Source: Acinetobacter brisouioides (GTDB taxonomy: Bacteria; Pseudomonadota; Gammaproteobacteria; Pseudomonadales; Moraxellaceae). From it: a stretch of 64,000 nucleotides of DNA. The stretch lies in assembly GCF_004331075.1 (NCBI RefSeq), contig NZ_SJNX01000006.1, positions 62,001 to 126,000 on the forward strand, given 5' to 3'. Both the position numbers and the translations under genes were made by a program. Below are positions 14,729 to 16,574 of this stretch, in pieces (positions within the stretch are counted from its first letter, which is position 1; every line of letters begins with the position of its first letter). The notes beneath the pieces were generated by a model. It ran no database searches. It saw only the letters and a program-made list of their open reading frames with translations, and was not told where the DNA came from.

Positions 14729-14805
<77 letters not shown>

Positions 14806-14869
14806 TTAACGATGCAATAGTTTAACTAAATTTTACTTTAGCTTCAATAAAGTTGCATACTTTATTGAT

Positions 14870-14946
<77 letters not shown>

Positions 14947-15157: not shown

Positions 15158-15175
15158 TGTAAGAAAAAACTTACA
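15158..15175 (+). promoter_or_regulatory. Perfect GacA/UvrY-type upstream activating palindrome
   Basis: TGTAAG (15158-15163), AAAAAA, CTTACA (15170-15175). This is an exact match to the TGTAAG-N6-CTTACA site described upstream of rsmX, rsmY and rsmZ in pseudomonads, the binding site of the response regulator GacA. It lies about 40-50 bases before the presumed start of the candidate small RNA, with a -10-like TAATTTTAT at 15202-15210. Confidence 0.8.
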
Positions 15176-15214
15176 TTATTTTAAGGTTTTTTCGTCTACT
15201 TTAATTTTATGTAG

Positions 15215-15376
15215 GCGATTAACATAGCGCCATCAGCAAATGGAAACGAACAATGGATTTGTTCACACATGGATTGTATGCTGAGTTGTCAATGGAACGA
15301 CAAAGAAAGGATATAGTTGAACTGGACGTTTGACCAAGATATTCAACCCGAGCTTGCTCGGGTTTTATCTTTTTAT
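15215..15376 (+). ncRNA. Candidate Rsm/Csr-type regulatory small RNA (CsrA sponge)
   Basis: This plus-strand stretch codes for no convincing protein but has the design of RsmX/Y/Z and CsrB RNAs, which bind many copies of CsrA/RsmA. ANGGA motifs lie at 15240, 15253, 15269, 15292 and 15307, and a further GGA at 15324. Two sit in hairpin loops: GAACAA-TGGAT-TTGTTC (15248-15264), and TTGTC/GACAA stems around an 8-base loop (15286-15303). The transcript would end at the strong terminator 15345-15376. A perfect GacA-type site lies just upstream. Length would be about 160 bases; the 5' end is inferred. I cannot tell whether it has been described before. Confidence 0.75.
15345..15376 (+). terminator. 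Intrinsic terminator of the candidate small RNA
   Basis: AACCCGAGC-TT-GCTCGGGTT, a 9-bp perfect stem, is followed by TTATCTTTTTATTT on the plus strand. On the minus strand the stem is followed by GAATATC, so it works as a plus-strand terminator. No protein-coding gene on the plus strand ends here. Confidence 0.88.
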
Positions 15377-15394: not shown

Positions 15395-16084
15395 CTAAGC
15401 AATCTCATTATTTAATATAGAGAGTAACTGCTGAAACTCAACATCATTGACTTGAAGTTTAGCCATAATTTCTTCTTTAGTAACGTATTCATTCGGATGA
15501 ATTCCTTCGGAAAGGATGTACAGTTTTATATTTTTATACTTATTCAAGATTTGAGCATAATGCTCATCAAGAAGGCCTTTTTTAGCGTTTTCTCTGGAGA
15601 ATAATAAGATATGATAGGTTAAATTTTCTGAAAATCGCATATTTTTATTTTCAACTTTCTCTCCCATCTCATTTTTAGTGTTAAATTGCGTTGTTTTTCC
15701 CAAGACCTTGATGACTTCACGATGCCGAATACCACAAAAATCAAGCATAGCATCACGATTCCATCCCACATCGAGTTTAATATCAATTAAATGCGAAATC
15801 GTTTTATCATTTTCTAAAATAAAAATATCAGGATATTTAACAATGTTGGATGCCCCAAATTGTAGAGGTTGATCAACATAATAAGTACAGTGTCTTTTTA
15901 TGTTTTTTGAAATAAATTGAGCCATCAGATCTTCGGCCTCCGAAGAAACAGATCGGCTACGACCACGAAAAATATTTTCTGCAATTTTTTTCGAGTTTTG
16001 CTGTTGTTTATATAAATCAACTAACTGGCTAAAAATTCTTGAGGCTTCATATTCATATACCCAATGCTCAAATAAAAAACGCAT
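15395..16084 (-). CDS. Unrecognised protein with a PD-(D/E)XK nuclease-like motif
   Basis: I do not recognise this 229-residue protein. It contains a good PD-(D/E)XK nuclease signature: SSEAED near residues 47-52 with a possible helix glutamate, then YPDIFIL with PD at 85-86, and IDIKLD with D-I-K at 101-103, in hydrophobic strands. The C-terminal half (ILLFSRENAKK, then a helix-rich end) has no clear motif. No methyltransferase or other defence gene is adjacent. The ATG lies inside the 3' arm of the pilin terminator hairpin, with only a weak ribosome site, so translation may be low or depend on readthrough. It is AT-rich compared with neighbours. Nuclease function is inference. Confidence 0.6.
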   Translation of the reverse strand: MRFLFEHWVYEYEASRIFSQLVDLYKQQQNSKKIAENIFRGRSRSVSSEAEDLMAQFISKNIKRHCTYYVDQPLQFGASNIVKYPDIFILENDKTISHLIDIKLDVGWNRDAMLDFCGIRHREVIKVLGKTTQFNTKNEMGEKVENKNMRFSENLTYHILLFSRENAKKGLLDEHYAQILNKYKNIKLYILSEGIHPNEYVTKEEIMAKLQVNDVEFQQLLSILNNEIA

Positions 16085-16121: not shown

Positions 16122-16574
16122 TTACAGAACAACAATACCACCAGCAGCAGCGCCTGCGGCACCACAACCTTTAGGGGCATATTTAGTATCAACTGTAGTA
16201 TTACAAGTCCACACACCAGCTGCATCGCGACTTAAAGTGATAAATTTACCAGAAATTGCAGGCGTACCAGCTAAAGTACAAGTAATAGCGTTAGTCGCAG
16301 CTCCAGTAGCATCATAATTAGTAGCCCCGTAAGCTGAACATGCTGCACTTGTTGTTGCGTTAAAACCGATATCACTTAATTTAACAATTGCTGTACCGCT
16401 ATTTAGCTTATCTTCATAACCTGGTTTAACCGAGGTAATTTCAGATAAAGCCGATGATACTTGAGAGCGCGCAACATAAGTTTGATATGCAGGAATTGCA
16501 ATCGCAGCCAAAATACCAATGATCGCAACTACGATCATCAATTCGATTAAAGTAAAACCCTTTTGAGCGTTCAT
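16122..16574 (-). CDS. Type IV pilin (PilA-like major or minor pilin)
   Basis: A type IV prepilin of 150 residues: a short leader MNAQKG cleaved before F7, then [20 protein letters not shown], with the conserved Glu at mature position 5 and the hydrophobic assembly helix. Cysteines at 79, 99, 124 and 137 could form two disulfides, the last pair enclosing the D-region loop. The protein ends in AAAGGIVVL and lacks the C-terminal serine that some Acinetobacter pilins use for glycosylation; no pilin glycosyltransferase gene follows. ATG 16574 is chosen because GGAG lies 7 bases upstream and it gives the shortest normal leader. A sigma-54-like promoter lies upstream. The pilus export genes pilMNOPQ are 14 kb away in this window. 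Confidence 0.9.

Follow-up and report, generated by a model that had tools for sequence, protein, structure and literature searches.

A predicted GacA-activated small RNA gene of the Rsm/Csr type in Acinetobacter brisouioides, with related units across the genus

The DNA considered here is a stretch of 64,000 nucleotides (nt) from Acinetobacter brisouioides (contig NZ_SJNX01000006.1, positions 62,001 to 126,000), referred to below as the window, which carries on its plus strand, at 15158-15374, a unit made up of a palindrome, a series of GGA motifs and an intrinsic terminator. Judged from its sequence, this unit is very probably (roughly 0.88) a small RNA (sRNA) gene of the Rsm/Csr type, activated by GacA, whose RNA would titrate CsrA away from messenger RNAs (mRNAs). 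By analogy with the known Gac/Rsm pathway, GacS would activate GacA, and phosphorylated GacA would bind the palindrome, which is centred about 66 nt before the predicted transcription start. The candidate sRNA would then be transcribed and accumulate, CsrA dimers would load onto its ANGGA hairpins and linkers, and CsrA-repressed mRNAs would be released.

The palindrome, a predicted GacA-binding site and upstream activating sequence (TGTAAGAAAAAACTTACA, 15158-15175, plus strand), is an exact TGTAAG-N6-CTTACA, as the initial annotation of this DNA had it, and equals what we, like that annotation, take to be the GacA consensus. A −10 hexamer, TAACAT (15220-15225, plus strand), begins 62 nt on from the start of the palindrome, which is the usual promoter spacing for Gac/Rsm sRNAs. 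With its 5' end placed from this hexamer and its 3' end from the terminator, the predicted RNA is about 140 nt long and runs from 15232 to about 15371 on the plus strand. A scan with the sigma-70 consensus returned no site at the candidate promoter, a blank that would fit an activator-dependent promoter.

The exact palindrome occurs four times in the source genome, against no copies of a reversed control, and across Acinetobacter 155 of 175 genomes carry it, at 313 sites in all, where the control yields 12. In a sample of the family Moraxellaceae, Acinetobacter included, it is present in 243 of 299 genomes and in 10 of 16 genera. The surroundings of these sites were sampled by taking the first exact palindrome in each of 30 genomes, out of the 155 genomes that had sites. 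At 26 of the 30, a terminator-like site lies 150-245 nt downstream, together with at least three GGA on the same strand (the failures being L127, L133, L136 and L147); this combination is seen at 1 of 114 control positions located 800 or 1100 nt away, which are probably mostly intragenic and so flatter the contrast.

An anchored set of 30 sequences was then defined from the 26 passing palindromes and four units of the source genome (types A, B, C and F, type A being the window unit), the four failures being dropped. Members of one family are not independent in the counts from this set, in which a −10-like hexamer is present in 21 of the 30 sequences, at offset 62 in 16 and at offset 61 in five, and no other offset tested exceeds 5 of 30. 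GGA counts peak 80-99 nt from the start of the palindrome, just past the inferred transcription start. The sRNA families with this promoter layout have, by eye, only short motifs in common, and the spacing of the −10 hexamer is therefore unlikely to stem from inherited sequence alone.

The predicted RNA contains five ANGGA motifs and one further GGA, and three of the six lie in the loops of hairpins shared with its homologues. The GGA triplets start at 15242, 15255, 15271, 15294, 15309 and 15324, the first five in ANGGA context; every motif position given initially (ANGGA at 15240, 15253, 15269, 15292 and 15307, GGA at 15324) is correct, although the first ANGGA begins 64 nt past the palindrome and not about 50 bases past it, as had been claimed. 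On the plus strand, ANGGA 1 (ATGGA, 15240-15244) and ANGGA 5 (AAGGA, 15307-15311) fall in linkers of the shared fold. ANGGA 2 (start 15253) occupies the loop of the hairpin GAACAA-TGGAT-TTGTTC (15248-15264), ANGGA 4 (start 15292) that of TTGTC-AATGGAAC-GACAA (15286-15303) and the sixth GGA that of GTTGAAC-TGGAC-GTTTGAC (15316-15334), while ANGGA 3 (start 15269) sits in a short hairpin, ACA-TGGAT-TGT (15267-15277), that falls below the cut of four base pairs used when hairpins were counted. The unit is closed by the intrinsic terminator AACCCGAG-CTTG-CTCGGGTT followed by TTATCTTTTT (15345-15374, plus strand; stem-loop 15345-15364).

Nowhere else in the 64 kilobases (kb), on either strand, are ANGGA motifs packed as densely as these five within 75 nt; the next separate cluster has three. 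Dinucleotide shuffles reach five ANGGA in 1 of 2000 cases and six plain GGA in 102 of 2000; because shuffles match the plain GGA count more readily, the signal resides in the ANGGA context and not in the GGA count alone. The fold of the window RNA has a z-score of −3.43, with none of 200 shuffles equally stable. As initially described, two motifs are loop-borne, the GGA at 15255 and 15294 lying in hairpin loops of the minimum-energy fold with an unpaired probability of about 1. The third loop GGA, at 15324, belongs to the fold shared with the homologues (−32.1 kcal/mol, against −39.2 kcal/mol for the minimum-energy fold), and its hairpin is not part of the minimum-energy fold of the window RNA.

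The terminator had been credited with a 9-bp stem and with no gene to serve. Its existence and the missing gene stand, there being no plus-strand gene of at least 60 amino acids (aa) close behind it; the stem has eight pairs around a 4-nt loop, since a 9-bp inverted repeat would leave a loop of 2 nt. The terminator is thus an orphan that closes the candidate unit, which reads as a free-standing non-coding unit with a terminator of its own.

This anatomy resembles that of RsmX, RsmY and RsmZ of Pseudomonas, which likewise combine an upstream palindrome of the GacA type, a short RNA, A(N)GGA motifs in loops and linkers, and a terminator. According to passages of the reports concerned, RsmZ of P. 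fluorescens is 127 nt long, with four stem-loops plus a terminator and eight GGA (PMC4005645), and RsmX-2 of P. brassicacearum, discovered through its upstream palindrome, is 110 nt long with six GGA (PMC7911923). The left half of the brassicacearum palindrome differs from that of the window. The site and layout of rsmX/Y/Z genes, which the initial annotation had recognised here, are borne out in nearly all the sequence comparisons made, among them those of the promoter spacing, the GGA hairpins, the orphan terminator and the protein partners described below.

Homologues of the window RNA (type A) are present in 7 of the 175 Acinetobacter genomes, and the set comprises seven distinct sequences (the window, L006, L007, L008, L009, L028 and L021). 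A model built from the seven, R1, scores those genomes at an E-value of 2.9e-19 or better, with the next best at 5.4e-4; at 15 of 23 loci with weak R1 matches, a palindrome with no more than one mismatch lies close by. The named holders are A. brisouii CIP 110357, A. brisouii TUM15274, Acinetobacter sp. ANC 3789 and MB5, and RimP of the window is 98% identical to RimP of A. brisouii CIP 110357. All seven homologues occupy the rimP side of one and the same locus, as open reading frames (ORFs) show for the window, L021 and L028, and as the occurrence of their exact RNA sequences in rimP loci L043 to L046 indicates for L006 to L009. Conservation of the unit at the rimP/metY locus throughout the genus was considered and rejected. 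In a survey of 80 such loci from named records, four were too short and 76 had at least 871 nt upstream; the palindrome (at most one mismatch) was found in 4 of the 76, with the terminator in the same four, and most loci lack it.

Aligned, the seven homologues have a mean column identity of 81%. Each carries six or seven GGA, three of which a scripted count places in hairpins of 4 bp or more, a number reached by 8 to 18 of 500 shuffles per sequence. The palindrome is kept in six of the seven, exact in the window, L006, L008, L009 and L028 and with one mismatch in L007. The terminator stem-loop does not vary among the seven, and a comparison of reading frames found none common to all of them. 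The homologue from genome G058 (L021) has six GGA and the same terminator but no palindrome recognisable within two mismatches.

The stems themselves differ among homologues, for instance TTGTC/GACAA in L006, GATC/GATC in L028 and GATCA/TGATC in L021. Of the 23 pairs in the consensus fold, seven are kept despite a change on both sides in some sequence. At the places of the ANGGA 4 and GGA 6 hairpins, all seven form a GGA-bearing hairpin of 4 bp or more, with differing stem sequences. At the place of the ANGGA 2 hairpin six of the seven form one, L008 being the exception; double changes in at least one homologue preserve four of the six pairs of this hairpin, and three of its pairs are disrupted or gapped in one or two homologues. 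In the ANGGA 3 hairpin, two of three pairs are kept by double change in one homologue, in which the third is broken.

This pattern bears on the possibility of an RNA that GacA does control but that works chiefly by pairing with mRNAs, in the manner of Hfq-dependent sRNAs, its GGA motifs being incidental or serving stability. There is a precedent of sorts in A. baumannii, where a passage of one report gives the promoter activity of the base-pairing sRNA Aar as 1.4-fold lower in a gacS mutant (PMC11472050). We nevertheless consider this improbable, since the homologues keep GGA motifs and their hairpin context while stem sequences change, and other families of the same layout share, by eye, GGA but little else.

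The protein partners expected of a CsrA-titrating RNA under Gac control, namely proteins of the GacS, GacA and CsrA types, are all encoded in the source genome with the expected domains. CsrA is 84 aa long and matches NF002469 with 117.6 bits (cut-off 73), a regulator of the UvrY/SirA/GacA type shares 48% identity with UvrY of E. coli, and a GacS-like kinase of 934 aa has HAMP, HisKA, HATPase, receiver and Hpt domains, with BarA as its best model. GacA was found in all seven type A genomes. In a hand-chosen set of genomes from the family, all three without a GacA match also lack the exact palindrome, as do 18 of the 31 with a match, so that there is no clean co-occurrence of the two.

That lack of a clean correlation would suit a different arrangement, in which the palindrome is bound by another regulator of the LuxR/FixJ type and the RNA sequesters CsrA independently of the Gac system; the 16 response-regulator-like matches to a UvrY query in the genome and the homologue without a palindrome point the same way. 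We regard it as a poor prospect all the same, as the palindrome equals the presumed GacA consensus and the best UvrY homologue in the genome is clearly of the GacA type. Very improbable is the notion that the unit belongs to a neighbouring gene, as its leader or its end, or is itself a small protein-coding gene. Five of the seven homologues do have a similar 14-codon frame, which in the window reads METNNGFVHTWIVC and is overlapped there by a frame of 26 codons. L028 and L021, however, lack these short frames yet retain the GGA hairpins, and in both a pilin-type gene lies directly convergent behind the RNA; in the window no sizeable plus-strand gene closely follows the terminator.

Several further observations weigh against a GacA-activated Rsm-type RNA, besides the flattering controls, the dependence among family members and the uneven co-occurrence with GacA already given. 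The window RNA differs from the Pseudomonas Rsm RNAs in matching no Rfam Rsm/Csr model: a search gave no match to these families at an E-value of 10, the gathering score of none of them was reached, and identification through Rfam was rejected. The diverged homologue L028 resembles RsmY (RF00195) over the full model, at 27.4 bits and an E-value of 0.0057, below the gathering score of 57, and the other ten sources in the same search gave no Rsm/Csr family at an E-value of 0.5. The window RNA is accordingly filed as Rsm-type by its predicted anatomy, and not as RsmY.

On the protein side, the best NCBIfam match of the GacA-like regulator (264.9 bits) is below its cut-off of 280, and the BarA/GacS-like kinase scores 569 bits, below a cut-off of 890. 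The minimum-energy fold of the window RNA pairs two of the shared hairpins otherwise, and for 5 of the 23 consensus pairs there are one or two homologues in which the pair is broken or gapped. Sites with up to two palindrome mismatches are not enriched in the source genome (99 against 134 for the control), and loose matches consequently mean little on their own. One exact palindrome of that genome, at C8:215054 (L001:1501-1518), sits between two genes without a GGA unit; its 18-mer also occurs in genomes G012 and G013. The homologue of genome G058 (L021/L163) has no palindrome within two mismatches. On account of this last case and the Rfam result, our confidence in a GacA-activated Rsm-type sRNA gene was lowered from 0.90 to 0.88.

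The candidate gene is divergent from two tRNA-Met(CAT) genes (14729-14946, minus strand), as the initial annotation had noted in placing it opposite the initiator tRNA operon; we take both to be of the initiator type from their GGG/CCC anticodon stem. The pilin gene said to adjoin it is nearby (type IV pilin, 16122-16574, minus strand) but not directly adjacent, because an ORF of 229 aa (15395-16084, minus strand), for which Pfam and NCBIfam searches gave no match, intervenes. The far side of the RNA was checked in the window, L008, L021 and L028; in the window and L008 other genes precede the convergent pilin position, and in L008 the place of the 229-aa ORF is taken by other ORFs.

The unit had been taken for the Gac/Rsm RNA of this organism, and the type was well judged, but it is one of seven candidates. 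All 14 sites in the source genome with at most one palindrome mismatch were inspected, and seven of them head a unit comprising a −10-like hexamer (offset 60 to 63), four or more GGA and a terminator. Apart from the window unit (type A), these are type B, between recD and rpsO (C10:152497, minus strand), type C, on the asd side (C13:29206, L187:1707-1950, plus strand), and four units of type D (C13:175968, minus; C13:179622, minus; C9:290950, plus; and C12:209179, minus, the last judged by eye). A weaker eighth candidate, type F, has two GGA (C10:152029, minus strand), and the remaining six sites lead no comparable unit. Types B and F (L002, L003) form a minus-strand tandem between recD and rpsO, and tandem palindrome-led pairs are likewise seen in L164, L170, L179 and L184. 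The four type D units (L190, L192, L219) each have a GGA in the terminator loop, and two of them are near-copies 3.6 kb apart.

Type C is nearly genus-wide, being present in at least 153 of the 175 genomes, of which 148 were found by BLAST (four of these matches being pieces of 71 nt or less) and five more with a nearer query. The copy in the source genome lies between asd and a glycosyltransferase-like gene and has eight GGA, and the six copies first read have 7 to 10. Type C is like the window RNA in promoter layout, terminator and, by eye, some likeness at the 5' end; R1 gives it only a weak match in the source genome (E-value 0.086), which leaves homology between the two putative. BLAST at first gave type C in none of the seven type A genomes, which suggested mutual exclusion, with type A replacing type C. 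This was rejected when a diverged type C was found at C13:29206, which as a query matches five of the seven type A genomes (not G058 and G070). The window RNA is thus likely to be a lineage-restricted type that comes in addition to the nearly genus-wide type C.

Units of this kind also occur on plasmids. The type D query L011 is 100% identical to an A. ursingii plasmid and has matches in 354 of 72,556 PLSDB records, 353 of them from Acinetobacter, with 78 covering at least 80% of the query. Seventeen records (L201-L217) of the 30 in a spread listing were opened; 16 hold a complete unit and the 17th retains only the terminator end. In the 45-nt stretch where the palindrome is expected, the 16 units show no mismatch in four cases, one in one, two in seven, three in three and four in one, and of the 11 with at least two mismatches, six are perfect palindromes of another sequence (for example TGTACG-N6-CGTACA). 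TATNAT is present in every one of the 16, at offset 61 or 62, as are three to six GGA and, by eye, a terminator, whose loop holds a GGA in 14. One complete unit is on plasmid pAB1 of A. baumannii 17978UN.

For seven of these 16 units, the next gene downstream on the same strand encodes RelE/ParE or VapB, and XerC/XerD-like sites are present in five of the eight plasmid stretches scanned. The window RNA itself has no sequence match to plasmids at an E-value of 1e-5, so the plasmid units share its layout and not sequence homology with it. We lean towards the view that Acinetobacter plasmids carry Gac-driven CsrA-sponge RNAs of their own, a mobile, unannotated Rsm branch often placed just upstream of toxin-antitoxin operons, which may let a plasmid reset the CsrA network of its host when GacS/GacA fires; with at least seven chromosomal copies in one genome, this would amount to an exceptionally sponge-rich Gac/Rsm system.

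Rsm-type RNAs have been predicted in Acinetobacter before. Passages of the published reports describe CsrA-antagonist RNAs predicted at ACIAD0018/0019 and ACIAD2750/2751 in A. baylyi ADP1 (PMC5568370), and list RsmX, RsmY and RsmZ of A. baumannii in brackets, as uncharacterised and derived from genome inspection (PMC7366521, Table 1). Passages from further reports describe csrA as essential for A. baumannii on rich media (PMC12802169) and GacA as a virulence regulator of that species (PMC12070743). In A. baylyi, one phenotype of gacA/gacS loss requires csrA, and sponge RNAs have been proposed without being named (PMC12455638); evolution experiments with the same species yielded mutations in csrA and, between recD and ACIAD0400, in a predicted sRNA to which no function is assigned (PMC11426457). 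From its neighbour recD, the latter is likely to be a type B unit. The portions of the open-licence literature covered mention no experimentally tested Rsm RNA of Acinetobacter and none on its plasmids.

In these same portions, the RNAs expected to link GacA and CsrA in Acinetobacter have so far been only hypothesised or predicted. The gene positions given here, together with a promoter rule (the palindrome with a −10 hexamer mostly 61-62 nt on) and a structural rule, make that link directly testable in laboratory strains. In a second genus of the Moraxellaceae (g9), most genomes have about two exact palindromes each, and Gac RNAs could be sought there through the palindrome likewise. For Acinetobacter itself, the analysis offers a candidate identity for the A. 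baylyi sRNA of unknown function and points out plasmid-borne units of the same layout.
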